Positions 1,487 through 20,979 of a stretch of 20,979 nucleotides of DNA are shown here, one piece after another. The notes beneath the pieces were generated by a model. The model was not told where the DNA came from, did no database searches, and worked only from the letters and a program-made list of their open reading frames with translations. Position 1 is the first letter of the stretch; the number at the start of each line of letters is the position of its first letter. The translations under genes and the position numbers were made by a program. Source of the DNA: a virus; the IMG/VR virus record IMGVR_UViG_3300031578_000408, positions 1 through 20,979 of that record; one strand, written 5' to 3'.

Positions 1487-1726
1487 CTATTGGAGAATAC
1501 GGTATTTGGATTCCCGTACAAATACTACCGCTTTTTTTAAAAATCCGAGAAGTCTCTCCGCATCTTCGAGAGTAAGCGCGAGAGTTTCTGCGTCACATTG
1601 GTTTATGAAGACTGGGCGCATAATTCCGTCCGCGCCGATTGCCGTCATATCAATGACCGCCTCTATTTCACTCCCCGAGCTAGGGCCAAGTTCTGGGTCT
1701 TCTAATAGCTTTTCCTTAGCGGCCAT
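1487..1726 (-). CDS. Hypothetical 79-aa protein
   Basis: I do not recognise this protein. ATG 1726 has GGAG six bases upstream and lies inside the last codons of the endolysin gene (25-base overlap). The sequence has an acidic N-terminus and a central 'VIDMTAIGADGIMRPVF' that looks like beta strands, followed by 'CDAETLALTLEDAERLLGFLKKAVVFVRES', which looks like a helix. It has no signal peptide or membrane segment. The ALTLEDAERLLGFL helix resembles the small soluble phage proteins that have a short beta sheet and one helix. Function unknown. Confidence 0.7.
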   Translation of the reverse strand: MAAKEKLLEDPELGPSSGSEIEAVIDMTAIGADGIMRPVFINQCDAETLALTLEDAERLLGFLKKAVVFVRESKYRILQ

Positions 1727-2388
1727 CGTATCTCCACAAGATCTTCAGGAGAATATAAACTCTCTTTAAGCATATTAGATTGGTTGCCGCCCAAACACAG
1801 CAACTTTTCCCCGTGTCCTCGACCTACGTAAAAGGTTACGTGCCTTCCAGATCCCCCAGTGCGCTTAAATGTAAGGATTGCCCCATACTTTAGTTCTGAT
1901 TTGGTCCCGTAAGTGTCAAATTTAATTGCCGCAGCAGAGTTAGGGCTTGTATATCCGAATTTCTCAAGTGCTGCACAGGCCAGAGCCGCACACCAAGCCG
2001 TCTCGTCCGAGGTCGCCAGTGGATGTCCCGCCAGAGAAGTGTATCTGAATAAGTCCGTGATAAATGGGTTTGCCTTCTCCCCAGAGATTTCTTTCTCGCC
2101 AATGTGTGCCTTCAGCCAAGTCATCCAGGGAGTTTCTTCTTCTGTAACTACCGGATTTCTGTCATTTGGCAATGAAGCTATTTTCCTGCGCATTATTTCA
2201 TCAGTGGCATCCCCGAATTTTCCGTCCGGAGCCAACTTATTGTCGCGCTGGAATGCCTGGAGATTTTTTTGGGTTTCTTTGCCAAAAATTCCGTCAATTG
2301 TCGTTAAATATCCGAGCCTATTTAGCCATCCTTGTAGGATTCTAACCAGTAGCTCTTTTTTACTGTTCTTCCTCAGAATCGCCGCCAC
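1702..2388 (-). CDS. Endolysin: peptidoglycan-binding domain plus NlpC/P60-like (TIGR02594-type) peptidase domain
   Basis: This is the cell-wall lytic enzyme of the phage. Using the GTG start the protein has 228 residues. Residues about 10-67 form a PG_binding_1 domain (LLVRILQGWLNRLGYLTT, DGIFGKETQKNLQAFQ). The C-terminal half matches the TIGR02594 type of cysteine peptidase: PWMTWLKAHIGEKEI, the acid-flanked DETAWCAALACAAL with the probable nucleophile Cys133, GRHVTFYVG with His183, and GGNQSN with a polar third residue. The protein lacks a signal peptide, so it needs a holin. The open frame reaches TTG 2403, but GTG 2388 has GAGGGGG six bases upstream and is preferred. It overlaps the 55-aa membrane gene upstream and the 79-aa gene downstream. 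Which peptide or amide bond is cut cannot be told by eye. Confidence 0.88.
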   Translation of the reverse strand: MAAILRKNSKKELLVRILQGWLNRLGYLTTIDGIFGKETQKNLQAFQRDNKLAPDGKFGDATDEIMRRKIASLPNDRNPVVTEEETPWMTWLKAHIGEKEISGEKANPFITDLFRYTSLAGHPLATSDETAWCAALACAALEKFGYTSPNSAAAIKFDTYGTKSELKYGAILTFKRTGGSGRHVTFYVGRGHGEKLLCLGGNQSNMLKESLYSPEDLVEIRWPLRKSY

Positions 2389-2527
2389 TTTTTTCCCCCT
2401 CAAAATAATCTTTACTTAAATACATATCCTTCGGTCTTCTTGCCCTATGGACAAGTTCAAATACAGAGTAGATTACGTACGTCCCAGCCACGATGTATAT
2501 TCCGATAAGGAAAAGATCCCCGGTCAT
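2360..2527 (-). CDS. 55-aa single-pass membrane protein directly before the endolysin
   Basis: This short ORF starts at ATG 2527 with AAGGTG six bases upstream and ends at 2360, 29 bases inside the endolysin gene. The protein has a hydrophobic segment at about residues 5-26 (LFLIGIYIVAGTYVIYSVFE), then a basic stretch HRARRP, and a very acidic tail ending SGGDSEEEQ. That gives one membrane helix with a soluble charged C-terminus. Its start overlaps the stop of the upstream 50-aa gene in an ATGA arrangement, so the two are coupled. Its place immediately before the endolysin makes it a candidate holin-like or inner-membrane lysis protein, although one TM helix and an acidic tail are also common in unrelated phage membrane proteins. 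Confidence 0.65.
   Translation of the reverse strand: MTGDLFLIGIYIVAGTYVIYSVFELVHRARRPKDMYLSKDYFEGEKSGGDSEEEQ
2395..2401 (-). promoter_or_regulatory. Ribosome binding site that decides the endolysin start
   Basis: On the minus strand GAGGGGG is followed by six adenines and then GTG at 2388. The upstream TTG at 2403 overlaps this element and has no good Shine-Dalgarno of its own. The GTG start is therefore the better choice. Confidence 0.7.
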
Positions 2528-8137: not shown

Positions 8138-8518
8138 GTGAAATCAAAAATGCCGCAAAAGGACTTAGATTTTGTAAAAAAGCTGCTGCGACGGGGCTCC
8201 ACAAGATGGCCTGGAAGATCTGAATGCCTTAAAAGGCACAGAAAAAAGGTGTTCGTCAGGAACGGCAAGAACGGCGCTCCTATATATAAGTTCCATTGGC
8301 AGTGCGCTATCTGCAAGGAATGGACGGACGATCTGTCTACGATAGAAGTAGATCACATTGAAGAAATAGGAACGTTCGTTGATTGGAACTCGTTCATAGA
8401 AAAATTATTCTGTGGGCAGGAAAACCTACAAGCCCTGTGCATCCCTTGTCATATGAAAAAGACCCAGGTTTACAACTCTGCTAGGACTAGATGGGAAAGA
8501 AAGGTGCCCCACAAGTGA
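8138..8518 (+). CDS. HNH endonuclease, the only plus-strand gene
   Basis: This 126-aa protein has an N-terminal RRGSTRWPGRSECLKRHR segment followed by a complete HNH domain. The domain has CAIC (Cys56/Cys59), IEVDHIEE (Asp72-His73), WNSFIEKLFCGQENLQALC (Asn96) and CIPCH (Cys101/Cys104, His105). The 'R..RWP.R.E.LKR' start plus 'VDHI..IG.F..W..FI..LF' core is typical of phage HNH proteins found in replication modules (pattern memory). The frame begins at GTG 8138, and ATG 8150 is a good alternative, with only a weak AAGAAG nearby. It lies between the minus-strand polymerase (divergent) and the minus-strand Ig-like gene (convergent). It must have its own promoter or ride on a plus-strand transcript, and I could not find a convincing promoter. 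A homing-type insertion or a recombination nuclease are both possible. Confidence 0.88.
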   Translation: MKSKMPQKDLDFVKKLLRRGSTRWPGRSECLKRHRKKVFVRNGKNGAPIYKFHWQCAICKEWTDDLSTIEVDHIEEIGTFVDWNSFIEKLFCGQENLQALCIPCHMKKTQVYNSARTRWERKVPHK

Positions 8519-8534: not shown

Positions 8535-8852
8535 CTACTGAGGAACTGCGTTGGCTTCAAGTTCAAATACAACAGCTTCTCCAGCCATGCACTCCAACTC
8601 TACTTCGCCAACGATTAGCTTCACGCCTTCGCCAAGGTCAGCGTCACCGCTTACTTGTACGATTGCTAGGCCAACTGCGCCGTTGCGTTTGAAAATAGCA
8701 CTCATGCCGTCTTCAGAAACTTCTAGGTCGCCAAGGGCTAAATCGCCGCCCACTGCCCATGAAAGTGCGCCGTCAATAGCCGCATCATTTCCAGCAGCGT
8801 CTTTAATCGCCTTTACTTTGATCTCTGCATTTTCGTTTAACTGTAGCTTCAT
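8535..8852 (-). CDS. Nested in-frame product: free Ig-like domain protein (105 aa)
   Basis: ATG 8852 (residue 103 of the longer ORF, beginning MKLQLNENAEIK) has AAAAGGGG ending about eight bases upstream, as strong as the sites of the main genes here. The protein started there is exactly the Ig-like domain, the form in which this type of phage protein usually stands alone. Either both products are made, giving an anchored and a soluble version, or the upstream 102 codons are a separate gene that lost its stop codon. The sequence cannot decide between them. Confidence 0.55.
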   Translation of the reverse strand: MKLQLNENAEIKVKAIKDAAGNDAAIDGALSWAVGGDLALGDLEVSEDGMSAIFKRNGAVGLAIVQVSGDADLGEGVKLIVGEVELECMAGEAVVFELEANAVPQ

Positions 8853-9158
8853 ATTGGTATCCCCTTTTATTCGCCCATTTATTGTTAGTTTATAAACTTC
8901 CAACTCGAACATCACGGCAGGTAGAACGGGCTTTAATTCTCCTTCGATCCGTAAGAGTATATCTCTTATTTCTTCTAAAATTATTAGCTTTTTACTTTTG
9001 TAGTTCTTAAAAAATAACAAAACCCACACTGCGGCCCTTGCTAGGTAAACAAATATGTTGGAAAATAAAAGCCCCAGCTTATTTAAAAGTCGTCCGAGGC
9101 CACGACATACCCGAATGGGGATCTCCCTGACAAGTTCGATCAACTCTAATTGTTGCAT
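8535..9158 (-). CDS. Membrane-anchored protein with C-terminal Ig-like domain (207 aa)
   Basis: Start ATG 9158 has AGAGGAG upstream. The N-terminal half has a basic amphipathic helix and a strong membrane helix at about residues 28-50 (LGLLFSNIFVYLARAAVWVL plus LFF), then a charged helix KSKKLIILEEIRDILLRIEGE. The C-terminal half (103-207) has the pattern of a small phage protein predicted to be Ig-like (bacterial Ig type): KVKAIKDAAGNDAAIDGALS, then WAVGG, DGMSAIFKRNGAVGLAIVQV, SGDADLGEG, and a closing VELECMAGEAVVFEL. The two halves may be a fusion, because the second half begins with a Met that has its own ribosome binding site. Ig-like domains on phage proteins often decorate virions or bind surface sugars, which is inferred only. 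Confidence 0.75.
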   Translation of the reverse strand: MQQLELIELVREIPIRVCRGLGRLLNKLGLLFSNIFVYLARAAVWVLLFFKNYKSKKLIILEEIRDILLRIEGELKPVLPAVMFELEVYKLTINGRIKGDTNMKLQLNENAEIKVKAIKDAAGNDAAIDGALSWAVGGDLALGDLEVSEDGMSAIFKRNGAVGLAIVQVSGDADLGEGVKLIVGEVELECMAGEAVVFELEANAVPQ

Positions 9159-9187
9159 TGATATTCTCCTCTAACAAGACTGTAATT

Positions 9188-9556
9188 TTAATCAGTTAGT
9201 CTTTTTATGATGCGAGTTTTTCCTAGACCACTATCTATAGTCTCAAAAAGATCGTCAAACACACCGATGGCCTGTTTGCATTCCATACTAAGACAGTTTT
9301 TCAATAGTGTATATCGTAGGATGGTCCAGTCTTCACTTAGTAAAACGATTCCGTGCCTACGAAGTTTGTCCCATTCTTCCTTGGGGATTCTTCCTTCTTC
9401 TGCTGAAACTGTTTTTACATAGTAGCCGTCGCCACTTGCTGGCAGAGTTACGTGCGCTTTGAAGTCAGGAATTTTTACGCTTGCGCAACTTACCAAAGCT
9501 AGCAAACCTACGCAGAGCAATAATGACTTCATCGTCGATAGCTTTAATTTCTTCAT
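9188..9556 (-). CDS. Small lipoprotein, candidate outer-membrane lysis protein
   Basis: The protein starts KKLKLSTMK and has a hydrophobic segment ending in the lipobox LVSC at Cys24, so the mature form should be a lipoprotein. The second residue after Cys is Ser, with no Asp at +2, so sorting to the outer membrane is allowed. The rest (about 98 aa) is soluble with IPKEEWDKLRRHGIVLLSED and a Cys pair (KNCLSMECK). This layout recalls lipoproteins found in phage lysis cassettes. ATG 9556 has AGGGA eight bases upstream. Met9 is an alternative start that gives a tighter signal peptide. It starts 92 bases inside the upstream 125-aa membrane gene in another frame, as o-spanin genes often do inside i-spanin genes. 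It lacks the Pro-rich stretch of classic Rz1. Confidence 0.78.
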   Translation of the reverse strand: MKKLKLSTMKSLLLCVGLLALVSCASVKIPDFKAHVTLPASGDGYYVKTVSAEEGRIPKEEWDKLRRHGIVLLSEDWTILRYTLLKNCLSMECKQAIGVFDDLFETIDSGLGKTRIIKRLTD

Positions 9557-9842
9557 CGGTTAAGTCCCTGCCTTCATTGCGTATCTTTTGAATTAATTCT
9601 TCTGCGGTTTCCCAGCTTCCGTCGAAATATTTTTCGTCGGACATTGTTTCCATTCTCGCCGCTCCAATATTTAATACAATCAATCCGGCGTTTGCAAGAG
9701 TCTCACAGAAATATTTTAAGAATAGGAAGACAACTTTTCCCAGGAAACCCTGGGTTAAAAATAGTGTCGCGGGATTGGCGGCAAGACCCGCCATAATAAC
9801 AGAGGCCCCTGTCGCGCCAATTCCGCTAAACTTATGTTTCAT
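9465..9842 (-). CDS. Holin- or inner-spanin-like membrane protein
   Basis: This 125-aa protein has a Gly/Ala-rich, mildly hydrophobic N-terminus (IGATGASVIMAGLAANPATL) and a strong membrane helix at about residues 32-58. A charged helical region follows (ELIQKIRNEG, TDEEIKAIDDEV), and it ends with LRKRKNS. A basic C-terminus after one or two TM helices is typical of holins. A TM plus a charged helix followed by an overlapping lipoprotein gene is typical of the spanin pair. ATG 9842 has no good ribosome binding site but starts one base after the stop of the 66-aa gene, so it should be coupled. It is not clear which of the two roles it fills. Confidence 0.7.
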   Translation of the reverse strand: MKHKFSGIGATGASVIMAGLAANPATLFLTQGFLGKVVFLFLKYFCETLANAGLIVLNIGAARMETMSDEKYFDGSWETAEELIQKIRNEGRDLTDEEIKAIDDEVIIALRRFASFGKLRKRKNS

Positions 9843-9843
9843 T

Positions 9844-10044
9844 TTATAATGCTACTAATTTCTTAATCCAAGCAATTGCTTGGTCGTCGATTGGAGTAGA
9901 AGACTTTGCAGCAAGTTTTTCAACTTCAGCAATAAGATCAATCTCAACTGCCAACTCAACTTTTACTTTTAGCTGACCGTCGATATCAACAGACGCCACA
10001 CCGTAATCACCTAATTTTTTTTCTAATTCTTTTCCTTCAAACAT
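9844..10044 (-). CDS. Hypothetical 66-aa acidic protein
   Basis: ATG 10044 has a strong AGGGGGG seven bases upstream. The protein has a short helix, then GVASVDIDGQLKVKVELAVEID as two likely beta strands, then an amphipathic helix LIAEVEKLAAKS and a final helix DDQAIAWIKKLVAL. It has no membrane helix. I recognise no family. Its stop is one base before the start of the holin/spanin-like gene, so the two are translationally linked. Confidence 0.7.
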   Translation of the reverse strand: MFEGKELEKKLGDYGVASVDIDGQLKVKVELAVEIDLIAEVEKLAAKSSTPIDDQAIAWIKKLVAL

Positions 10045-10054
10045 TTTATCCCCC

Positions 10055-10384
10055 CTAGGAATGTAGTTTTTTATCTCGCTCTAAATTGTCCACTCTTTGG
10101 CTTATTCCGTCCAGTCTTTCCCCGTGTTTTTGAAGATCTAGCCTAAGTGCGGCGGCTACGTTATTGATGGCCTCTGTAATTGCCCCGAAGTTTTTTGATA
10201 TCTCTTTCTTTACTCTGCCCGAATGAATCCATGCGGCAACGGCGAAGAAGAATCCAGCCTGGGCAATTTGACTGTTTGCTGTGGCCATTATGCCCTGTAT
10301 GACGGCCTCCGGGTCTGATACGGCGAACATTCCTAAGCCCGCGCCCCCTGCAATTCCGGCTGTCTTCTTAAAACTATTAATCAT
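10055..10384 (-). CDS. Membrane protein with coiled-coil tail, lysis-cluster candidate
   Basis: The 109-aa protein has a Gly-rich weakly hydrophobic N-terminus (AGIAGGAGLGMFAV, residues 9-22). A hydrophobic segment at about 38-53 (QIAQAGFFFAVAAWIH) is followed by basic residues (GRVKKE). A long helix with heptad-like spacing comes next (AINNVAAALRLDLQKHGERL, then DGISQRVDNLERDKK). One or two TM helices plus a coiled coil fits an inner-membrane lysis protein (i-spanin or holin), but no family was recognised. ATG 10384 has GGGGGA upstream, and this site is part of a hairpin described separately. Confidence 0.7.
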   Translation of the reverse strand: MINSFKKTAGIAGGAGLGMFAVSDPEAVIQGIMATANSQIAQAGFFFAVAAWIHSGRVKKEISKNFGAITEAINNVAAALRLDLQKHGERLDGISQRVDNLERDKKLHS

Positions 10385-10442: not shown

Positions 10443-11123
10443 TTAGTGGTATTTTTCCGTCTCTGACCAAGACTTAGATATTGCGTTAAAGTGCCACACC
10501 TTGTCGAAGAATCTACGGCCAAATTGGAGGTTAAAATCACGGCTTAAAAGGTCTAGTAATTTGTATTCATCCACCCCGTGTAGCTCCCCAGTAATCCATT
10601 TAACTTTCGATATGTCGGGGATGGCACTGAGTATTTCGTACTCCGCCCCCTCCACGTCTATTTTAATGAAGTCTGGAGTCCCTACTTCCTGACATATTTT
10701 GTCCATTCTTACTATGTTTACTGTCTGACTTTCAGACCCGTCCTTAATGAAATTAGAAAATCCTCCGAGGTTTGTTTCGTCAGTACTGGAATACAAAATC
10801 CGGTCTTCCGTCTTGTTGCCTAGGCCAACTTTTAGTGCCCGGATATTTTCGTACGATGCCGTGTTCTTTATGAGTAGATCGAAGTTTTCTTTTTCGGGCT
10901 CGAAGCAATGTATTTTAGCAGCAGGATAAATATTGGCCAGCAGACTAGATACCACTCCGATGTTAGCCCCGATATCAAACACAAGTTTAGGCTCGAAGTT
11001 GGGAAATAAGTATTCAGACTTGTCGATAATAACTGCTTTTATAATTGCCTCGTCACTTGTTCCTGGTCGGTAGCATATCGGAGGTCTGTCTTCAAAGGCC
11101 TCAAATTTCTTAATTGGTCTCAT
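10443..11123 (-). CDS. FkbM-family methyltransferase
   Basis: This 226-aa enzyme shows the SAM-binding and FkbM motifs. They are LVFDIGANIGVVSSLLANIY (motif I, 47-66), IHCFEPEKENFDLL (motif II, 71-84), and TPDFIKIDVEGAEYEIL (149-165), the family signature with the acidic residue and IDVEGAE. Such enzymes usually O-methylate sugars or related small groups. The length is normal for a stand-alone domain and nothing is missing. Its start overlaps the end of the GT9 gene by 14 bases, with GGAG seven bases before ATG 11123. The pair is expected to act on one pathway: glycan transfer followed by methylation of a host LPS/capsule sugar or of a phage tail glycan. Confidence 0.9.
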   Translation of the reverse strand: MRPIKKFEAFEDRPPICYRPGTSDEAIIKAVIIDKSEYLFPNFEPKLVFDIGANIGVVSSLLANIYPAAKIHCFEPEKENFDLLIKNTASYENIRALKVGLGNKTEDRILYSSTDETNLGGFSNFIKDGSESQTVNIVRMDKICQEVGTPDFIKIDVEGAEYEILSAIPDISKVKWITGELHGVDEYKLLDLLSRDFNLQFGRRFFDKVWHFNAISKSWSETEKYH

Positions 11124-12102
11124 TGTATTTCTCCATAGCCCATTGAGCCATATCTACAGGATTAGGTAGCCAAGACTCTAATATTTTTGGGTCGACAAAT
11201 TCTGCCTCTACGGATTGTTTTTTGTTTGGGCAGAAATCTATTAGGTCCCACACACCGCCGAGTCCGAAATTCTTTTCTCTCCATTGCCATTCGCCGTGAC
11301 GCCAGTGAGTAATCATATCGGGTTGCTTGCAAGTAGCAATGTACCCGATCCATGCGTCTCCGCAAGCGGCCATATGTAATGGGGCAGAGTCGTTTGTCAG
11401 AAGTACCTTAGCGTTTTTACAAAGCCAGATAGACTCGGAGATAGTTAGCTTGTTCCTTAGATCTAAACACCCGTCTGCGTTTACATCCACTGTCCCTCGA
11501 TTGTCGTCGGCGTCTGCTCCGATAAGTATTGGAGTTATTCCGCGAATTTGTAGTCCAGCTATAACCCTATCCCAAAAGGATTTCGGGAATGTCTTCGACT
11601 GCCAATGTTTCCCGGCGTGAATAAGTACGCCCCCCTTTTTAAGATTTAATTCCTTCCGAGGCTCCGGCGGAAACATTTGTATCTCTCTGTCTGAAACAGG
11701 AAGTTGTAATCGGAGCGCACACAGCGAAGGAAAATCCACACAGTTTGTAAGCATATGCGAGAAGAATTGCCACACTAAATTGGATTCGTCGGGAGGAGTT
11801 ATAGTCTCGAAGCAAAAGAATCTGCTGTACATAGGAACTTCTTCCCGAAGATCATACACCCGTTTAAATTTTAAGTGTGAAAATAGCTCCGGTATTTCAC
11901 TGGCTATGCTTATCTCACAGTCCTTGAACATCTTCAGCGCATATCTGAGGGTGGGCTCTGCGCATATCTGATCGCCTATCCCGCCCCAGGTTTTGAATAA
12001 AAGTTTGCGCTCTACCCCGGCATCAATAGCAATCTGTGTTCGGAATATGGGCAAATGGGTAACAGGCAAGGCTACCCGCTTAGTGGTGTCTATCTTTTCC
12101 AT
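11110..12102 (-). CDS. Glycosyltransferase family 9 (heptosyltransferase-like)
   Basis: This 330-aa protein has the GT9 layout. The N-terminal lobe carries FKTWGGIGDQICAEPTLRYA (36-55, the GxGD loop). The C-terminal lobe carries VLIHAGKHWQSKTFPKSFWD (159-178), PILIGADADD (191-200) and VLLTNDSAPLHMAA (233-246), the nucleotide-sugar binding NDS-P-HMAAA loop. GT9 enzymes such as WaaC/WaaF transfer heptose onto lipid A-core oligosaccharide, but donor and acceptor cannot be told here. ATG 12102 is preceded by GGGGAG, which lies in a hairpin. It is flanked by tail fibre and FkbM genes, so the target may be host surface glycan (serotype conversion, blocking reinfection) or the fibres themselves. Confidence 0.88.
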   Translation of the reverse strand: MEKIDTTKRVALPVTHLPIFRTQIAIDAGVERKLLFKTWGGIGDQICAEPTLRYALKMFKDCEISIASEIPELFSHLKFKRVYDLREEVPMYSRFFCFETITPPDESNLVWQFFSHMLTNCVDFPSLCALRLQLPVSDREIQMFPPEPRKELNLKKGGVLIHAGKHWQSKTFPKSFWDRVIAGLQIRGITPILIGADADDNRGTVDVNADGCLDLRNKLTISESIWLCKNAKVLLTNDSAPLHMAACGDAWIGYIATCKQPDMITHWRHGEWQWREKNFGLGGVWDLIDFCPNKKQSVEAEFVDPKILESWLPNPVDMAQWAMEKYNETN

Positions 12103-12105
12103 TGG

Positions 12106-12158
12106 TTTACTCCCCGTAGTGTTGAGACCTAATTATCTCATAAACATAGGGGAGTAAA
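12106..12158 (-). promoter_or_regulatory. Hairpin sequestering the ribosome binding site of the GT9 gene
   Basis: TTTACTCCCC (12106-12115) and GGGGAGTAAA (12149-12158) are a perfect 10-bp inverted repeat. Inside it TGAGA (12123-12127) pairs with TCTCA (12136-12140) around an 8-base loop. On the minus-strand RNA the downstream arm contains GGGGAG, the Shine-Dalgarno seven bases before ATG 12102. The fold would hide the site between the late fibre gene and the glycosyltransferase. No T-run follows, so it is not a standard terminator. Confidence 0.65.
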
Positions 12159-12166
12159 GGCATTGT

Positions 12167-14566
12167 TTACGTAAAATATTCCAATTCTACTTTATATACG
12201 TTCTTGCCTATTGGACTGTTTCCAAAGAAGGCCAGTCCGTCTCCAAGAGAAATTGTATAAGAATTGCCCGCTGTAACTGGGATGTCCAGAGAGGTAATAA
12301 ATTCCCTTCCGTCCGGAGCAAATCCGCCAAGAACTGCAACTGGGGATGATCTTGGAGCCACGTCTCCGACGCCCAAAGTTCCGTTTGTATTATTTCCCCA
12401 TGCGTAGAGCCCTCCATTAGTTGCTATTCCGAATACTGAATATACATCATTGGCACTGTCCGCAAAAAAGATATCCGCAAACTTAAATCCGCCAAGAACG
12501 GCAACAGGAGAAGATCTGGAAACTATATCCCCAAGTCCAAGCTGTCCGTTCGCGTTTATTCCCCATGCGTACGCCGTGCCATCATTGGTAAGTCCTATGG
12601 ACATACTTCTGAATGTTTTAACATCCTTAAATTCTAGTCCGCCAAGAACTGCGACAGGAGAAGACGCTGCACTTGTACTTCCTATTCCTAAAGCCCCTTG
12701 CGTATTGTCTCCCCACGCATATAGAGATCCGCCAGAAACTATGCCGAATATTGATTCACTCTTAGGGCATTTTATTAGTCTCTCGAATGTTAGTCCGCCG
12801 ATAACTGCAACTGGAGAAGACTTAGCAACAACGTCTCCGTGTCCAAGTTGTCCAGACGAGTTATCTCCCCACGAATAGGCGTTGCCAGAATTGTCCAGTG
12901 CTGTGAATGAATATCTGCTAGACACTGCTCCGCCAACTATTTGTTTAATTTGCAATCCGCCAAGAACCGCAACGGGAGAAGACTTTGCAGCTACCGTTCC
13001 GTCGCCCAGTTGTCCATTTACATTATTCCCCCAAGAATATGCCAGACCTCCGGGAGTTACAGCCACTACAGATCCGTTTGCAGCAGACCCAGAAATGAAT
13101 GACATCGTGCTAAATGACAGTCCTCCGAGTACCGCAACAGGGGAAGATCGAGGGACAACGTTTCCTACTCCAAGTTGCCCGTTCGTATTTACGCCCCAGG
13201 CATACGCGGAGTTATCAGAAGATATTCCAAGTACCGAAGTGTCCCTTGGATATATGTCCATAAATTTAATTCCGCCAAGAATTGCAACTGGAGAAGACTT
13301 TGCCGCTACCGTTCCGACGCCAAGCTGTCCGTTACCGTTCACTCCCCAGGAATAAACAGATCCGTTAGCTGCAATTCCGTAGCTATTCATAACAGTGGCG
13401 GACACGGTAGTTCCGTAAATTTTGTTGAATGCAAGACCACCAAGAACCGCAACAGGCGAAGACTTGGCTACTATAGATGCGTCGCCAATCTGCCCATTCG
13501 TATTTAATCCCCATGAATACGCATTGCCGAATACGTCAACCATCCCAGTTTTTTCTTTAGATACACCGACAATTCCCCTATAGGAATGCACTTTTACAGA
13601 GGATACTCCTACCGGAGCGGTCCAAGATTTATTAAGAATATACAGTGTTTCAGAAGTAGCTCCGGCAACTCTGTCGGCGGTGGAAAGAGCCTTCCACCTA
13701 GAGTCTGTCGTGCAATAAAACAATGTCATAGAACTTTCTGGCTTCAAGGAGTAGTCCGCCGCTGAAGGAAGTATAATTCTCTCAGTAGCAGCAGCGCCAG
13801 TGTCTTGATGTTTTATCGTTACATACGCAGTAGATCTATTGTGAATTGTGACTACCTTACTGTCGTGAGATATATTTATCCCCTGAATATCGGTCGCAGT
13901 AGACCCAGTCATTTCCACTACTACTTTAGTGGCCGATAGCTGCGCAATGGTAGCAGTGGTAGCAACGTTCTGTCCCACTAATATCTGGGAATTTAATTTG
14001 TGGGGAACTATTGTTTCAACTTCTCCACCAACAAATTTCATATGTTCTGTCAAAGTTGCACTTCCGTCTGGAGTGGACCAGAATGAAAGTTCTCCCCCGT
14101 AGGCACTGGATGTTTGGTCGTCGGTAGCATTCCAAATAATTTTAGCAACTACTGGATTTCCGGATGAATCTGTTCTTCCAACTACTCGTATCTCTCCGAC
14201 TACGTCTCCGTCCAAAACTTGGCCGTTGGTAGCTATTCGTCTTTTTACTAATTCCATTACAGCGCCAACTGCATCCGCGCTTATTTTCTTTACTTGGAAT
14301 GAATCAGTAGCAAGAGAAACAGAAGCCAGTCCAGTTGTTAGATTTATCTGGAATATCTCTACGTCAGTAGTTCCAGTCCAAATCTTGAAGGACCAAGAGG
14401 TAGGGTCATTTGTCATATCGACCCACGATCCCCCTATGTCTGTCTCTGTTGGGCGGGAGGTTCCACTGCATCCAGACATTAACGCATCTTTAAAATCGTT
14501 TAGTGTTGTTGCCAATGTTGTCCCGCTTATGGTCGGGTCGATTGTGCTAAAAATTGTCTGACTCAT
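12167..14566 (-). CDS. Tail fibre / receptor-binding protein with eight RCC1-like repeats (copy 1)
   Basis: This 799-aa protein begins with a segment common to phage fibres (LNDFKDALMSGCSGTSRPTE, residues 22-41, then GGSWVDMTND). A beta-rich shaft follows, ending SKSWTAPVGVS-type 'LYILNKSWTAPVGVSSVKVH' at about 310-330. Residues about 347-748 hold eight repeats of 50-55 aa with core 'aYsWG.N.nGqLG.GdvvakSSPVAVLGGl.F', the RCC1 (regulator of chromosome condensation) signature that folds into a beta-propeller. The last 45 residues (FITSLDIPVTAGNSYTISLG) resemble the closing domain of Gly-rich fibre tips. ATG 14566 has AGGAG five bases upstream. It is a paralogue of the upstream fibre gene, separated by 8 bases. 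The propeller is likely the surface-binding tip. Confidence 0.85.
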   Translation of the reverse strand: MSQTIFSTIDPTISGTTLATTLNDFKDALMSGCSGTSRPTETDIGGSWVDMTNDPTSWSFKIWTGTTDVEIFQINLTTGLASVSLATDSFQVKKISADAVGAVMELVKRRIATNGQVLDGDVVGEIRVVGRTDSSGNPVVAKIIWNATDDQTSSAYGGELSFWSTPDGSATLTEHMKFVGGEVETIVPHKLNSQILVGQNVATTATIAQLSATKVVVEMTGSTATDIQGINISHDSKVVTIHNRSTAYVTIKHQDTGAAATERIILPSAADYSLKPESSMTLFYCTTDSRWKALSTADRVAGATSETLYILNKSWTAPVGVSSVKVHSYRGIVGVSKEKTGMVDVFGNAYSWGLNTNGQIGDASIVAKSSPVAVLGGLAFNKIYGTTVSATVMNSYGIAANGSVYSWGVNGNGQLGVGTVAAKSSPVAILGGIKFMDIYPRDTSVLGISSDNSAYAWGVNTNGQLGVGNVVPRSSPVAVLGGLSFSTMSFISGSAANGSVVAVTPGGLAYSWGNNVNGQLGDGTVAAKSSPVAVLGGLQIKQIVGGAVSSRYSFTALDNSGNAYSWGDNSSGQLGHGDVVAKSSPVAVIGGLTFERLIKCPKSESIFGIVSGGSLYAWGDNTQGALGIGSTSAASSPVAVLGGLEFKDVKTFRSMSIGLTNDGTAYAWGINANGQLGLGDIVSRSSPVAVLGGFKFADIFFADSANDVYSVFGIATNGGLYAWGNNTNGTLGVGDVAPRSSPVAVLGGFAPDGREFITSLDIPVTAGNSYTISLGDGLAFFGNSPIGKNVYKVELEYFT
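12322..13526 (-). repeat. RCC1-like repeat tract of fibre copy 1 (8 units)
   Basis: Eight units spaced 150-165 bp share a DNA core of about 25 bp, e.g. CCAAGAACNGCAACNGGAGA on the plus strand, encoding SSPVAVLGG. Cores start near 12327, 12492, 12642, 12798, 12960, 13125, 13275 and 13440. Third-codon positions differ between units, so they are old duplications rather than recent ones. Confidence 0.85.
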
Positions 14567-14574
14567 TTTATCTC

Positions 14575-16953
14575 CTACGCCTCGTATGCTATTGTTATAT
14601 AGTCCAAATCATAATCCATAATTGTCGTCCCAAAACTACTTACTAATTTAGAAAGATGTATTGGGTATGACACTCCTTCTTCTACTCTTACAACGTAACT
14701 ATTTATAACTGTTCTGTGGTCTCCGGACACCCCGGAAATAACGGCAACAGGAGAAGACCTATTAGTTAAGTCCCCTACGCCAAGTTCTCCGCTATTATTT
14801 ACTCCCCAGGAATAATATTTTCCGTCGGTACACATTCCGTATGTTTGTTGGGAAGATGCAAAAACATTGGTAAATTTTAATCCCCCCAGAACAGCAACCG
14901 GGGAAGATTTCGCAAGCTGATCTCCTGTGCCTAAGTTATAGTTGTTATTAATTCCCCATGCGTACAGGGTTCCGTCAGCAGTAAGAGCAAATACAGAAGA
15001 TGAGCTTCCGCTGAAAAATTCTTTGAATAATAATCCGCCAACGACAAGAACTGGAGAAGACCTTGGTGTTATGTCACCCACTCCTAGTTGCCCGGCTTGG
15101 TTTCTTCCCCAGGAATATAGCTCTCCATTTTCCTTTAGTCCGTAGAAAGCTTCCCCTCCGGCACTGTAGATATCTTTAAATGTGTGCCCACCTATCACTA
15201 GAACGGGAGAAGATCTGTCGACATCGTCTCCAACTCCAAGTTGTCCAATATAATTTCTGCCCCAGGAGTACACATCCCCATCGTCAGTAATTCCGGCAAT
15301 CGACCCAGAATTTCCCGATGTAGTTATTTTTCTAAATGAAAGTCCTCCAAGAACGGCCACTGGGGAAGACCTGTCTGTCAGATCTCCGACCCCTAGTTGC
15401 CCGTAACTGTTATATCCCCATCCGTACAATGCCCCATTATCTCTTATTGCGAATGTGGAATAGGCTCCTGGGGCCCGGAAAATATAATCAAATCTAAATC
15501 CCCCCAATACTAACACTGGGGAAGACCTTGAAATAACATCCCCCAGACCTAGGTTTCCTCTAAAATTTAGTCCCCATCCGTATGCTGATCCGGATGTGTC
15601 CAACCCAAGAGTTTCAAAACCCCCATGCTCTACCGATACAAACTTAAGGCCGCCAAGGACTGCCACTGGAGAAGACTTGCTAAGAATTGAATCTCCTCCT
15701 CCCCCATTGCCGTATTGGTTGTTTCCCCATAAATACGCAGAACCATTTTTTGTTATCACTCCCCTTGTGTACGGAATAGAGTCGTCTCCATACATAACTC
15801 TTTGAGGGAGGGCGGACAGTCCGCCAATAACTAATACCGGAGAAGATTTTTCAACTAAAGTTCCGTCTCCAATTTGCCCACCGAAGTTATCTCCCCATCC
15901 AAATATGTTTCCATAAGAATCTACTAGGGAAGTATAATGAAATAGTGTTTTCCTGTGCGCCGTTATTTTAACAAGCCCAGTTATTGGAGAAACCCAAGTT
16001 GAATTTCTTTGATATATTGTTTCAAAAATGCCGTCTATGTTCTGCCCAAGAACTGTAGATCTTATTTTCCACCTAGAGTCTGTCGTTGAGTATTGTAATA
16101 TTGCGGTAGATTCGGGAATGATTATGTAGTCTTCTCCGGACGGAAGTTTTAATCTATCAGAGGCCGCTGCTCCCGCATCTTGATTTTTTAAGGTTACTTC
16201 CGCAGTAGATCTATTATGGATTATAAGTACTTTTGATTCCCCGGCAGAATCTATTCCATAGATATCCGTTGCTGTAGATCCCGTCATTTCCGCCAATATT
16301 TTAGTGGCGGAAAGTTGCGCTATGCTGGCTGTAGTTGCCACGTTCTGGCTTGCCAGTACTTGCGAATTTAATTTGTGGGGAGCTATTGTTTCAACAAGCC
16401 CGTCTATAAATCTTATATGCTCGGATAGTGATGCGTCTCCGTCGGGAGTCGAGTACATAGAAAATGTTCCGCCGCTAGCCGAAGACGTCATATCGTCAGT
16501 TGAAGTGAATCTTAGTATTGCTGAAACTGGATTTGTGGAAGTGTCTGTTCTTCCAGTAAATTTTAATTCGGCTAAAACATCTCCGCTAAGTACCTGTCCA
16601 TTGTTTGAGATCCTGTTCTTAATTAATTCTAAAATAGGTCCGACGGTATCCGCCGAATATCTTTGCACAGAAAACGTATCGTCAGCGTTTAGTACTCCGC
16701 CAAAATTGCTTAATATGGAAACTCGAAATACTTCAATATCAACTGTGCCGTCGAATATTTTGAAGGCCCAATAATAATCTGGGGCGGTCTGGTTTGTTGT
16801 GTCTATCCACATCCCGCCAGCCTGTAAACTTGTTGGCCTGGAAGTTCCAGAACACCCAGACATAAGGGCATCTTTAAAATCGTCCAACAATGCCGATAGC
16901 ATTAATCCGGAAGTTGTTAGCGGATTTATCGACGACCAAATTTCTTGACTCAT
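14575..16953 (-). CDS. Tail fibre / receptor-binding protein with eight RCC1-like repeats (copy 2)
   Basis: A 792-aa paralogue of the downstream fibre. The first 330 residues align well by eye (DDFKDALMSGCSGTSRPT, then LNSQVLASQNVATTASIAQL in both with few changes), ending with ETIYQRNSTWVSPITGLVKI. Residues about 348-743 again hold eight RCC1-like units with the YSWG, GQLGVGD and RSSPVLVLGG cores, but the repeats have diverged more and use RSSPVLV/SSPVAV mixtures. The C-terminus (VVRVEEGVSYPIHLSKLVSS) is different from copy 1. ATG 16953 has AGGGG upstream. Two fibres with a common base and different tips suggest two receptor specificities, or a hetero-oligomeric fibre. Confidence 0.85.
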   Translation of the reverse strand: MSQEIWSSINPLTTSGLMLSALLDDFKDALMSGCSGTSRPTSLQAGGMWIDTTNQTAPDYYWAFKIFDGTVDIEVFRVSILSNFGGVLNADDTFSVQRYSADTVGPILELIKNRISNNGQVLSGDVLAELKFTGRTDTSTNPVSAILRFTSTDDMTSSASGGTFSMYSTPDGDASLSEHIRFIDGLVETIAPHKLNSQVLASQNVATTASIAQLSATKILAEMTGSTATDIYGIDSAGESKVLIIHNRSTAEVTLKNQDAGAAASDRLKLPSGEDYIIIPESTAILQYSTTDSRWKIRSTVLGQNIDGIFETIYQRNSTWVSPITGLVKITAHRKTLFHYTSLVDSYGNIFGWGDNFGGQIGDGTLVEKSSPVLVIGGLSALPQRVMYGDDSIPYTRGVITKNGSAYLWGNNQYGNGGGGDSILSKSSPVAVLGGLKFVSVEHGGFETLGLDTSGSAYGWGLNFRGNLGLGDVISRSSPVLVLGGFRFDYIFRAPGAYSTFAIRDNGALYGWGYNSYGQLGVGDLTDRSSPVAVLGGLSFRKITTSGNSGSIAGITDDGDVYSWGRNYIGQLGVGDDVDRSSPVLVIGGHTFKDIYSAGGEAFYGLKENGELYSWGRNQAGQLGVGDITPRSSPVLVVGGLLFKEFFSGSSSSVFALTADGTLYAWGINNNYNLGTGDQLAKSSPVAVLGGLKFTNVFASSQQTYGMCTDGKYYSWGVNNSGELGVGDLTNRSSPVAVISGVSGDHRTVINSYVVRVEEGVSYPIHLSKLVSSFGTTIMDYDLDYITIAYEA
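14724..15911 (-). repeat. RCC1-like repeat tract of fibre copy 2 (8 units)
   Basis: Eight repeats of 49-57 aa with the same core as in copy 1. One unit reads QYGNGGGGDSILSKSSPVAV, with an extra residue and a Gly run where GQLGVGD is expected, and the last unit ends VISGVSG instead of VLGG. Cores occur near 14736, 14885, 15035, 15194, 15350, 15500, 15650 and 15830. Confidence 0.82.
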
Positions 16954-16962
16954 ACTTTTCCC

Positions 16963-19900
16963 CTAAATTGTAGTCGTAGCTCGACGACCGTATCCTTTTG
17001 CCACTAGGTCAAATTGCCTTACTACTTGCGTGTCGGTTTTATCATAAAATCGAATTGATAGTCCAGCAAGGGACTTGTAGCCAAATGTCCAATAATCCCC
17101 TGTCTGCGCATTGTCTATTGAAATCTGTACGTTTGGCGTAGTTCCTGGGCCATTGAACACACTTATATATGTTACCACTAGCGCGTCCGAGGCCGATGAA
17201 ACTAGGTTTTCAAACGAATCAATCCTATCTGGCATATCGGCCTGTACCGTAGAGTCGAATAGTCTTGGGGTAACGTTGGCAAAATTGCTGGTAAGTCTTG
17301 CCCTAAACTGGAATATCCGCCCAGTAGCATCTCCGATTGTTGGAATTGGTCTCCAGTCAGTATATCCTATTCCGGCCCCTGCGTTTATGTTATCGACAAG
17401 CTGTAACTGCACCCAGTCTGCCATTGCCGAGAAAACATCGGTAGCCCTATACTCAACTCCTACTTCCCAGTCACTACTTTCGGAAGTATTCAAATGGTCC
17501 ACTGTGTCCAAGGACAGCCAGTCAGACATTAATTCCCCTAGCTTGTACCCATCCGCACGTATTTGAGACTGGAGCCGGACGGTATATACATCCCCAACAT
17601 CCAAAAGATTGATAGCTGAGTAGTATCCGGAGGAGTAATATTTTCCAAAATCAGGGTCGGGGGAAACTATTTCTTGATCTAGAACTACCGCATCGCCAAG
17701 AAGAACAACCCGGTCTTTAGTTCCTCCAAAATTCGGAGCGTCATTTACAGAGTCGATAATATTTAATTCAAAAAGATCTGGAACTGTAGTTACTGACCTA
17801 GCAGCATTCTCGGATTGGTTGCCAGCAAAATCTACCGCTTTTATTAAATATACTCCAGTCCTTGCCTGAACTGCGGTATTGTTTACATCCCTTGCCACTG
17901 TAGCAAGTGGAATAGATGCCTCCCACGCATCATTTAATCCGGGAGAGTACCGTATGTCATAGCTGGCAACATCACAGTCCACTACTTTTTTCCACGAAAG
18001 TTGTACTACCTGATTCGTAATACTCATATCCAGAACTTCCACATCACTTGGAGGCTCAGTCTTGGAAGTGGGTATTACAAGAACTTCTGGCATTTGATTT
18101 ACTTGGAGTTTCTTTCCTGACGCGGACACAGCAACAACTTTAAATCCATATTGTATGTTTAATCTGGATTGTTCCACATCGTATCTGTAAATTTTATCTG
18201 TAGTCGTGTCGTAAGATCTGTAGCCTCGTCCGTCGTTTACCCATATCTCAAAAAATTCGTAAACAGATCCGGCAGGAATGTCCCATACCAATTCCACAAA
18301 GTAGTTATATCCAGACTTAGTTACTGAGCATTCCCAATCATTATCTGTTGCTGCAAGCCCAATGACTGCTCTTGGGGGCTTGAAGTCAGGACTGCTAGAA
18401 GTAGATATTTGCGGGTCATAATCCGGCAATGTGTCTGTAGACTCATACTCAAATATCGCATCTACTTTTTCAACAAGAACTAGGTTTGCTGAGAGATCAT
18501 CATTAGGGCTTATTGATTTTATAATACAGTCGTAAACAATTTCCCCAACAATTCCTATGACAATGAGGTCTCCTACTGCTGGAACTGTTCCGTCAACATC
18601 GAAAGTACTTGCAGTGAGTACTGTGAGAGTGGAAGTTACTATTGCCCCTGTTGCTGAGTTTCTATACACATATCCATAAGACTCAAGTGGGTCTATGTCC
18701 AGGCTGTCGTCAACTGTAATTGTAACTCCAGACACAGCTTTTACTCTGGCAGGAGTTCCGCCAACTCGCATCGCATCCTGGGTTATTTGTACATAATCCC
18801 CACGCGAACAAGCTAAATGCTCAAAGTCAACATCGAGGGAAATTGTTTCCACGCGCAATTTGTTTTGCGCAATCATGTATCTTCCAAAGCGCCATGCTTG
18901 TTCGTGATTCGTACAGGCGAAAGAAGAAAGTTCATCAAACTCCGTTGCATTTAATTCTGTGTATCCATTGTCATATACTACTGACTCGCCAACTTCCCAG
19001 TTTAGCTGCGGGTCGATGTATCTTACTTTTAGTGCATGGGGCTTTGGCCCGTAAATTCTCGACGCCGCAAAGTTGTTTGAATTTCTTGGAGTAAATATTT
19101 GAACGGGAACAGACACAAGTCTGTCCACCAATACTCCATGCTTGCCATCTACTAGGTTTATGCTCGCCTGTGCTGCTCCGCACACTTGCGCTATTACTCC
19201 GCTAAGTGAAGTAGCGTAATCCAAAATAAAATTACATTGAAATCTTGGCTCAAGGTAAGTTGCCGACGGCGGAGGAGTAGGAACTTCTCCGCAGTATTCA
19301 TCCCAGGCTACTATAGAGTCCATATCAAGTTGTGATTGCGCAAGTGGCTTTTTATTTACTTCCCCTGTAAGTAAGTCACAAAATACCCAAGCCGGACTAT
19401 TGGTTGCTCCCCTTGTCCATGTTTGAGTGTTCGGGTCATATACAGGAATAACAGAGGTTACGATCCCGGATAGGTTTTGAATATTTCCGTTTAGCTGATC
19501 TGTGGCGCGTATTTTTAATTCTAGAAATACGTGTCTCTTTTTAGAATTTATCGGAGGCTGTTGGTACGCGGTAGTTATTCCAACCCATGTAAGTGCGTCC
19601 CCAACTTGAGTGGTAAATGTTCCGTATGTGCTTACTCTGCGCACCCTAACTTTGTATTGTCCTGTTACTTTTGGAGTAAATCTAAAATGAGAATATACCG
19701 GAGTTTGTCTTTCCCCTCGGATAACTGCCGCCGCATCGCCATGCCTTGATGTTACTATTTTAGCAGCGTCGTAGGCTATATTAGTTATAGTCTCACTGCC
19801 GCCGTACGTTATTGTAGATGTGTACTTGTATCCGCTGAATACTGGGTAAGTAGGAATATTTCTGTCCAACAATAATTCTGTATTCGGCCCAGCTATATTA

Positions 19901-20979
19901 TTTATGGAGGATATCTTTCCTAGTAGAGTCCCGCCCTTAAATACTTTTGCTCCAACGATAAAATCAGAGTTATCCGGAACAAGCAATTTGTTTTGCCCCG
20001 GCTTAATTCTCATTGTTGATATATTATTATTGGTATTGTTAAATCCATACGACCCAGAACTTTCCTGATACACCGTATCGTAGTACGCACTTGATGAGGT
20101 TCCGAAGATAGCTAGCTCGGATTCAAAGTCAGTTAGATCGTCTCCGCCAACGGCACTGTAGCTGTCTACGTAATCTGTGTCGTTGTATGCTCTCCAGTCC
20201 TCTGTTCCAACTAGAGCGAAGTGGACATTTAATCCTATGTTCCTTTCCCCAGTTACTCCGTTGGAGGAATATCCGAAAAGACCCCTTGGGCATATGAAAT
20301 CCAAAAGTATTTCCTGGGGAAGTGTATCGCTATTGTTATCCGCAAACTGAATAGTTTCAGATCCATTTACAAAGTCTATTGATAGAGGAGTGGCTACCCG
20401 CTTGTTTCTATAGTTTGAAAAATCCTGTTTTAAAAATTCATCATAAACGTCAGCAGGAGTAGTAGGCGAAAGTGGGTCAACGAAGTTGTATTCAAAATCC
20501 AGGAAGCTGTCCGTTGTAAGCGGAGTGTCCCCTATTTTTAAATCTGTTACTGTCGATGTTCCCATTCCGAAGTCATAGATAGCATATAAGTATTGTATTG
20601 TTTCCCCGGCATTTGTTCCGCCAGAAAGAGTGTCTACAACTCCCGTAACTAATTGAGTTTCAGATCCAGCGGCTACTCGATTCGCTGATACCAATGCGCT
20701 TGCTGCTGTACTCGCAGTAATCTTTGAAATGATTTGGTCAGCAGTCGATACCCCAGATTCTATTTTTACTGAGATTGCTTTTCCTACGACAGTGACAACT
20801 TCACTTCCGGCAGTTCCCCCCGAAGTGTAAGTAATAGTAATGGTATTATATAGCGTACCAAGATTCTTGGATGTGTACCTTACGTCCTGATAACTGACTG
20901 CGGATTTTGTTCCGCGAGATACCGCCAATTCTGTGTACGGGGTTACAGCTAAATTAGGAAACATCCTGTGAGTTCCATA
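16963..20979 (-). CDS. J-like central tail (tail tip/host specificity) protein, 5' end outside window
   Basis: The frame is open through the right edge. Its first ATG in the window (20964) is probably internal, because the codons before it read YGTHR and continue MFPNLA, matching the 'PVxYGTxRxxGN' segment inside J-type proteins. Further J-like parts are LYAIYDFGMG (126-135), NYRNKRVATPLSIDF, an LDFICPRGLFGYS segment, KKRHVFLELKIRATDQLNG and SPAWVFCDLLTG with MDSIVAWDEYCGE. Two fibronectin type III-like domains lie at about residues 860-968 and 970-1065 (VVQLSWKKVVDCDVASYDIRY), before a beta-rich C-terminus. J proteins form the tail tip that carries fibres and contacts the receptor. Residues 24-120 are an extra Gly/Thr/Ser-rich beta module (see findings). 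The stop is nine bases before fibre copy 2. Confidence 0.85.
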   Translation of the reverse strand, partial: YGTHRMFPNLAVTPYTELAVSRGTKSAVSYQDVRYTSKNLGTLYNTITITYTSGGTAGSEVVTVVGKAISVKIESGVSTADQIISKITASTAASALVSANRVAAGSETQLVTGVVDTLSGGTNAGETIQYLYAIYDFGMGTSTVTDLKIGDTPLTTDSFLDFEYNFVDPLSPTTPADVYDEFLKQDFSNYRNKRVATPLSIDFVNGSETIQFADNNSDTLPQEILLDFICPRGLFGYSSNGVTGERNIGLNVHFALVGTEDWRAYNDTDYVDSYSAVGGDDLTDFESELAIFGTSSSAYYDTVYQESSGSYGFNNTNNNISTMRIKPGQNKLLVPDNSDFIVGAKVFKGGTLLGKISSINNIAGPNTELLLDRNIPTYPVFSGYKYTSTITYGGSETITNIAYDAAKIVTSRHGDAAAVIRGERQTPVYSHFRFTPKVTGQYKVRVRRVSTYGTFTTQVGDALTWVGITTAYQQPPINSKKRHVFLELKIRATDQLNGNIQNLSGIVTSVIPVYDPNTQTWTRGATNSPAWVFCDLLTGEVNKKPLAQSQLDMDSIVAWDEYCGEVPTPPPSATYLEPRFQCNFILDYATSLSGVIAQVCGAAQASINLVDGKHGVLVDRLVSVPVQIFTPRNSNNFAASRIYGPKPHALKVRYIDPQLNWEVGESVVYDNGYTELNATEFDELSSFACTNHEQAWRFGRYMIAQNKLRVETISLDVDFEHLACSRGDYVQITQDAMRVGGTPARVKAVSGVTITVDDSLDIDPLESYGYVYRNSATGAIVTSTLTVLTASTFDVDGTVPAVGDLIVIGIVGEIVYDCIIKSISPNDDLSANLVLVEKVDAIFEYESTDTLPDYDPQISTSSSPDFKPPRAVIGLAATDNDWECSVTKSGYNYFVELVWDIPAGSVYEFFEIWVNDGRGYRSYDTTTDKIYRYDVEQSRLNIQYGFKVVAVSASGKKLQVNQMPEVLVIPTSKTEPPSDVEVLDMSITNQVVQLSWKKVVDCDVASYDIRYSPGLNDAWEASIPLATVARDVNNTAVQARTGVYLIKAVDFAGNQSENAARSVTTVPDLFELNIIDSVNDAPNFGGTKDRVVLLGDAVVLDQEIVSPDPDFGKYYSSGYYSAINLLDVGDVYTVRLQSQIRADGYKLGELMSDWLSLDTVDHLNTSESSDWEVGVEYRATDVFSAMADWVQLQLVDNINAGAGIGYTDWRPIPTIGDATGRIFQFRARLTSNFANVTPRLFDSTVQADMPDRIDSFENLVSSASDALVVTYISVFNGPGTTPNVQISIDNAQTGDYWTFGYKSLAGLSIRFYDKTDTQVVRQFDLVAKGYGRRATTTI

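Follow-up and report, generated by a model that had tools for sequence, protein, structure and literature searches.

The question raised by this locus is what a glycosyltransferase and a methyltransferase encoded directly behind two putative tail-fibre genes act upon, the phage's own virion or a glycan on the surface of its host. The stretch analyzed here, hereafter the window, is the 20,979-base virus record IMGVR_UViG_3300031578_000408. As a preliminary description had it, two overlapping enzyme genes occupy 10443-12102; both open reading frames lie on the minus strand and overlap by 14 nt, the FkbM start falling within the last GT9 codons. The order of transcription on this strand is J-like tail tip, RCC1b, RCC1a, GT9, FkbM, small proteins, DNA-metabolism genes and lysin-like gene, and the features on which the argument turns are the following:

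16963..20964, minus strand: J-like tail tip protein, 1333 aa (phrog_31 central tail fiber J, 1.5e-67; PF13550, 4.5e-7)
14575..16953, minus strand: RCC1-repeat protein b (RCC1b), 792 aa, putative beta-propeller tail fibre (PF25390, 2.1e-67; PF00415, 7.2e-53)
12167..14566, minus strand: RCC1-repeat protein a (RCC1a), 799 aa, putative tail fibre and proposed sugar acceptor (PF00415, 1.2e-57; PF25390, 2.3e-57)
12097..12171, minus strand: predicted RNA hairpin, end of RCC1a to GT9 start (-23.2 kcal/mol, z -3.87, 0/200 shuffles as stable)
11110..12102, minus strand: GT9 glycosyltransferase, 330 aa (PF01075 Glyco_transf_9)
10443..11123, minus strand: FkbM family SAM-dependent methyltransferase, 226 aa (PF05050, TIGR01444)

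RCC1a lies directly upstream of GT9, 64 nt before its start, and no promoter-like site was detected between the two, site numbers in the region being no higher than in shuffles. The cassette had been placed between fibres and lysis genes, which holds on the upstream side, where the two RCC1 proteins stand, but only in part on the other: the genes directly downstream of FkbM (8535-10384) encode short proteins without a solid family match, and the sole recognizable lysin-like gene of the window (1702-2403, PG_binding_1) is 8 kb away from the cassette. The DNA-metabolism genes further downstream comprise PolA, DUF3799 and SNF2. A small HNH-like protein is encoded on the opposite strand (8138-8518, plus) between PolA and the small late genes and is possibly a homing endonuclease, as read from its sequence.

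The glycosyltransferase belongs to the family defined by PF01075 (3.6e-11; 43.3 bits for a cut-off of 22). Across 38 GT9 sequences, G40, G41, G43, D44, D238 and H243 are invariant and K170 nearly so, and the relatives share the motifs GG-x-GD, D-x4-H and a lysine in HWxSKTFP. Since these catalytic residues are kept in distant relatives and purifying selection acts on the gene (dN/dS 0.073 and 0.075 for two GT9 pairs, the ones among four with an estimable dS), its presence is more than chance. That a GT9 is unusual in a phage, as previously remarked, is borne out by the lack of any match to this one at E 1e-3 in 50,697 phage records. Its subfamily comprises 52 loci, 47 in IMG/VR and five in genomes of 84,980 species (GTDB), the latter all in metagenome-assembled genomes, three with RCC1 adjoining the GT and one with RCC1 about 1 kb away; with just five such loci, most of them near RCC1, the subfamily is phage-borne rather than freshly acquired. 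The closest Escherichia coli K-12 protein is WaaF (profile E 4e-13; BLASTP 21% over 141 residues), and direct transfer from a host waa gene is unsupported, local identity to K-12 proteins amounting to 21-30%. The NCBIfam models for LPS heptosyltransferases I, II, III and RfaQ scored far under their cut-offs (18.5 vs 467, 17.8 vs 170, 13.4 vs 185 and 11 vs 134.6 bits, respectively). Hydropathy revealed no membrane segment in either GT9 or FkbM, the highest 19-residue value being 1.30. Long GT9 frames of 422-583 aa occur in nine loci (L019, L020, L021, L022, L050, L051, L053, L094 and L186); those of L019 and L022 are fusions with a GT8 domain in front of GT9, and the other long frames look similar in length or sequence.

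A structure model of GT9 (pLDDT 92.8) adopts a GT-B fold, with TibC, WaaF, 3tov and WaaC as the best matching folds. Foldseek ranked TibC first (3.2e-10; WaaF 4.3e-9), while VIA-align gave Z scores of 20.9 for 3tov, another GT9, 19.6 for TibC (294 residues, 4.5 A) and 19.6 for WaaF (263 residues, 3.5 A); folds further down, namely epimerases and UGTs, were taken as reflecting the common GT-B arrangement. The predicted fold would hence fit the protein heptosyltransferase TibC and the LPS heptosyltransferases about equally, in a near tie. The N-lobe of the model is compact and four-stranded, and the accessible text of PMC4358343 gives TibC four strands there versus six in a typical Rossmann fold.

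The AAH/TibC enzymes, with their partners AIDA-I/TibA, resemble the present case in that a GT9-type GT-B enzyme, here also the top Foldseek match in the PDB, is encoded next to a surface protein rich in repeats and of beta structure; serines of the partner receive heptose from TibC, according to the part of PMC4358343 at hand. They differ in several respects. The four-cysteine iron finger described in that part of the same source is absent from the window GT9, which has one cysteine in residues 269-300, C47 being the only one conserved over the 38 sequences. By alignment, D238 and H243 stand where TibC has Pro-300 and Trp-305, so that the TibC sugar contacts are not reproduced (Trp-305 aligns with H243, and Arg-286 with a variable position), while residues equivalent to the catalytic D110 and K230 of TibC are present (alignment and accessible text of PMC4358343). 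Moreover, the GT9 partner is an RCC1-repeat phage protein instead of an autotransporter, and an extra tailoring gene is present. As judged from the alignment, the catalytic residues appear to be of the LPS-heptosyltransferase type rather than of the TibC type. WaaC, WaaF and WaaQ share the fold and the catalytic signature, with WaaF as the best K-12 match, but the window GT9 scores far below the curated cut-offs, is phage-borne and linked to a tail gene, and has the compact four-strand N-lobe. Combining a TibC-like N-lobe with neither iron finger nor Trp-305, it would be an enzyme of its own kind between TibC and the LPS heptosyltransferases.

The second enzyme falls within the FkbM family (PF05050, 2.8e-15; TIGR01444 fkbM_fam, 91.1 bits for a cut-off of 37.7) and is thus a methyltransferase. 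The earlier wording of two sugar-modifying enzymes accordingly applies to GT9, which adds a sugar, and has to be amended for FkbM, which adds none.

The RCC1 genes of the window stand next to the J-like tail gene, and both proteins match phrog_4219 (9.2e-34 for RCC1a, 2.1e-41 for RCC1b), RCC1b also matching the tail protein family phrog_20500 (7e-17). In PollyC the RCC1 gene lies between an internal virion protein and the holin, and more generally in PollyC and SeaP phages it follows an internal virion or transglycosylase gene and precedes small genes, the position of the tail fibre in T7. RCC1-repeat proteins were found in virions by mass spectrometry in phage W70 (a phrog_4219 member; accessible text of PMC11370258) and in GAP32 (accessible text of PMC5259590). 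The PHROGs database files the RCC1-repeat families phrog_4219, phrog_7220 and phrog_16766 under DNA, RNA and nucleotide metabolism, despite their tail-gene neighbours and their presence in virions. A single-sequence structure model of RCC1a failed (pLDDT 35.7). Against the fibre as substrate, the RCC1 repeats of GT9 loci show no clear Ser/Thr excess, with 5.0 Ser and 4.4 Thr per repeat vs 5.2 and 5.6 in other RCC1 phages; for the SSP loop, the S/T value is 0.78-0.81 in GT9-locus RCC1 vs 0.66-0.73 in other RCC1 phages.

To what extent GT9 and RCC1 belong together can be read from the relatives of the locus. The GT9 set of 54 loci formed 47 clusters at 90% identity and includes two loci (L094 and L186) contributed by the RCC1 search; a strict motif count placed RCC1 adjacent to GT9 in 36 of this whole set. 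Leaving these two out, 45 clusters were fetched by GT9 similarity alone, and RCC1 is directly adjacent in 37 of them (35 by motif count, L016 and L050 by BLAST). Beyond these 37, RCC1 lies about 1 kb downstream of GT9 in L024. It is found 4 kb upstream in L051 and elsewhere in the record in L018 (as also, far from GT9, in L186, one of the two loci left out), while L021 and L025 have a GT gene cut by the contig start and no RCC1 in the record. In L017, L044 and L045 the GT9 gene lies among early DNA-metabolism genes, and the records (25.6, 42.2 and 43.7 kb) gave no RCC1 match; some GT9 members must therefore have another target.

Shuffling genes within the 36 loci that hold both under the strict motif count excludes mere co-residence: RCC1 and GT9 are same-strand neighbours in 34 of these, whereas 2000 shuffles averaged 6.1 and never exceeded 13. 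GT9 is downstream of RCC1 in 31 of the 34 neighbour pairs, the order being reversed in the other 3, and the gaps range from -59 to 223 nt with a median of 13, such that some pairs overlap or nearly touch. GT9 distances correlate with RCC1 distances (r 0.59-0.77) no less well than with the distances of three further tail genes (r 0.36-0.64; n 14, 15 and 19), which supports a joint history of GT9 and RCC1, not a reaction between them. BLAST detected no relative of the window's J protein among the GT9 loci fetched.

The same association was approached from the RCC1 side. RCC1a as a single-protein query in viral contigs yielded five pattern matches of which none was confirmed, hence the use of a DNA pattern of the repeat motif; this pattern, blind to GTs, fetched 120 loci. 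A match to the GT9 alignment was present in 4 of 79 whole RCC1 records, one being the L016 contig again and one a weak match (5.8e-5) to the proteins described below, and RCC1 thus does not need this GT9. Among 136 proteins beside RCC1 in 76 loci were 12 sulfotransferases, 8 Methyltransf_11 members, 2 APS kinases and several TPR proteins. By weak PF01075 matches and an HHalign comparison with the GT9 alignment (94.9%, 4.7e-8), the TPR proteins are a second, distantly related glycosyltransferase family (TPR-GT).

Counted with separate profiles for TPR-GT and sulfotransferase, TPR-GT stands no more than 700 bp from RCC1 in 26 of 98 RCC1 loci, or in 25 of 73 when the count is restricted to loci with 1.5 kb or more downstream; 45 of these 73 have no recognized GT nearby. 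Where both genes occur (28 loci), TPR-GT is the direct neighbour of RCC1 in 22 (shuffles: mean 8.3, maximum 15). A search from the TPR-GT side, based on the best 80 of at least 594 relatives and grouped into 40 clusters, found RCC1 directly adjacent (within 300 bp) in 36 clusters, a narrow sample because these best 80 are close to one seed that was itself found beside RCC1; two of the other four clusters lack room for it, and one of the last two has a single-motif RCC1 frame there. Of the six phage records matched by TPR-GT, RCC1 is also present in the two of S-SRM01 and in those of BUCT-ZZ01 and AG-345-E08; in BUCT-ZZ01 the protein encoded after RCC1 joins a TPR-GT to a methyltransferase. The S-SRM01 order is tail fibre distal subunit, RCC1, small gene, RCC1, TPR-GT and 2OG oxygenase, with RCC1, sulfotransferase and glycosyltransferase further on. 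Fusions are also encountered directly beside RCC1, namely of TPR-GT with a sulfotransferase (L113:6228-7997) and, beside RCC1 too, with a methyltransferase (L097:10574-12250 and L062:7881-9605; L141:10543-12294 looks alike). Most cultivated RCC1 phages examined have no annotated GT beside RCC1, so that the proposed modification would be optional.

The gene that follows GT9 is far less constant. The 60 proteins scanned downstream of it include 6 FkbM, 10 phrog_24975 (class I methyltransferase-like through weak Pfam matches), 2 DegT aminotransferases, 1 sulfotransferase and 2 second GT9 proteins, and FkbM is beside GT9 in few loci. Tandem GT9 genes after RCC1 are seen at L046:7923-10000 and L052:7863-9988. 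As a control, loci were fetched with FkbM as the query: among 80 of 333 viral relatives, RCC1 was present in 1, this GT9 in 0 and TPR-GT in 5, and with this GT9 absent nearby in all 80, FkbM is not the constant part of the cassette. A varied third gene would fit a glycosyltransferase laying the first sugar and other enzymes tailoring it, and the same variation would be expected of a host-glycan modifier. The Aphanizomenon phage Yong-DA (L058, ON073792.1) has RCC1 and FkbM matches but was not counted, bacterial-type polysaccharide genes surrounding them; Yong-DA and two records of identical length carry polysaccharide-export and sugar-transferase genes, in a stretch that looks bacterial rather than phage.

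On balance we lean, by a little more than even confidence, towards GT9 glycosylating the phage's own RCC1 tail fibre and FkbM methylating the sugar. The preliminary description had weighed a change of host LPS against decoration of the tail and, given the late position, preferred the virion; the tail is still favoured, now on the better grounds of the RCC1-GT pairing (37/45 clusters, shuffling and a second GT family), and host LPS stays the main rival. Computed support comes from the genes themselves, their intact catalytic signatures, the pairing that two GT families show, with shared orientation and small gaps, and the varying third gene. From this we infer RCC1 as the substrate, as well as the activity, donor, linkage or acceptor site and benefit. 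A cytoplasmic GT9 would act on the RCC1 fibre before virion assembly, probably drawing on host ADP-heptose or a related ADP/NDP sugar and linking it to side chains of the propeller; FkbM would then O-methylate the sugar already added. The gain may lie in altered adhesion, in protection from recognition by the host or by grazers, or in stability. More broadly, and more tentatively, RCC1 fibres could be dedicated substrates of phage-borne protein glycosylation. A GT9 or a TPR-GT would then serve each propeller as its own GT-B writer, and exchangeable enzymes adding methyl, sulfo or amino groups or a second sugar would tailor the product into a phage-specific glycan.

Adjacency, however, fits the fibre as substrate and the fibre's receptor as substrate alike. 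GT9 and FkbM might instead modify the host LPS or surface glycan that the RCC1 fibre binds, sparing progeny from being trapped on debris or making the cell resistant to a second phage, and the need for the fibre to suit the altered receptor would keep the genes together, so that this reading, too, predicts linkage to a host-binding protein. Among functionally characterized GT9 enzymes, LPS heptosyltransferases predominate; no K-12 protein is closer than WaaF, whose motif D238/H243 also resembles, and glycosyltransferases of the pelagimyophage tail-fibre region were so read by their authors in the accessible text of PMC7029224. On the other hand, a change in LPS brought about by genes of the late tail block would come late. 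The Gtr-type families of a serotype-conversion operon (GtrA flippase, GtrB and membrane transferase), which the preliminary description names for most serotype-converting phages, had no match among the 20 window proteins scanned against Pfam, and all four LPS heptosyltransferase models scored far too low, the best being the 18.5 bits given above. The pairing also extends to Synechococcus phages, whose hosts are said to have a heptose-poor LPS. We regard host-glycan modification as rather unlikely, albeit the strongest competitor.

Two other readings would detach the enzymes from the fibre. They might act on another phage product, such as a tail protein, the capsid, a nucleotide or a metabolite, the RCC1 neighbourhood being simply a conserved late block; the early-region GT genes of L017, L044 and L045 and the distant RCC1 of L018 and L186 would agree with this. 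The pairing recurs, however, in two GT families, beside different tail genes and with occasionally reversed order, and shuffling speaks against co-residence as its source, which makes such a product improbable as the target. The cassette might also be cargo without a virion role, host genes acquired where tail-fibre loci form a hot spot and exchanged through recombination, as the change of third gene from phage to phage and the rarity of FkbM beside GT9 might suggest. We hold this to be very improbable, given the purifying selection on GT9 and its phage-borne distribution, with three of the five GTDB loci RCC1-adjacent and one about 1 kb off.

Glycosylation of the RCC1 fibre, the reading we favour, would have precedents of a different kind. 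In mycobacteriophages (Freeman et al. 2023), phage-encoded glycosyltransferases reportedly modify virion proteins, as stated in PMC12619734, which cites that study; the targets there are capsid and tail tube, whereas a receptor-binding propeller is proposed here, and the window has a different GT family with a Gram-negative-type enzyme. Pelagimyophages likewise have GTs among their tail-fibre genes, but the accessible text of PMC7029224 mentions neither an RCC1 protein nor a fixed GT partner and reads the GTs as host LPS modifiers. No RCC1-glycosyltransferase pair in phages was found in searches of an open-licence library, most subscription journals lying outside it. Phage virion glycosylation and gene pairs of a GT and its substrate are known; the combination of an RCC1 tail gene with a GT-B enzyme did not turn up in that library. 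What began as a two-gene cassette widens to a pairing of an RCC1 tail gene with a GT-B enzyme that recurs in many uncultivated viruses. Glycosyltransferases in phage tail regions are usually read as host LPS modifiers, and a fixed propeller-GT pair, which involves two GT families and is also present in cultivated Synechococcus phages, makes modification by a phage of its own host-touching protein directly testable. RCC1-repeat phage proteins, assigned by PHROGs to DNA metabolism and suspected elsewhere of packing DNA, gain a different likely role. If the broader and more tentative reading is true, a seemingly passive fibre is a glycoprotein, and its sugar, not just its sequence, could set host contact.

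Finally, the predicted hairpin at 12097..12171 begins right after the RCC1a stop, and its closing stem pairs with the GGGGAG preceding the GT9 start codon. Masking of the GT9 ribosome site in this folding prediction suggests that GT9 may be translated in step with RCC1a. When 18 intergenic RCC1-GT9 gaps were folded, strong structures appeared only in L010 (z -7.2), L037 (-3.5) and L011 (-3.3); as 15 of the 18 do not stand out, such a hairpin was rejected as a general feature of the pair. A comparable but weaker hairpin (about -20 kcal/mol across 84 nt) lies on the minus strand upstream of 10384, over the start of the gene that follows FkbM (10055-10384).
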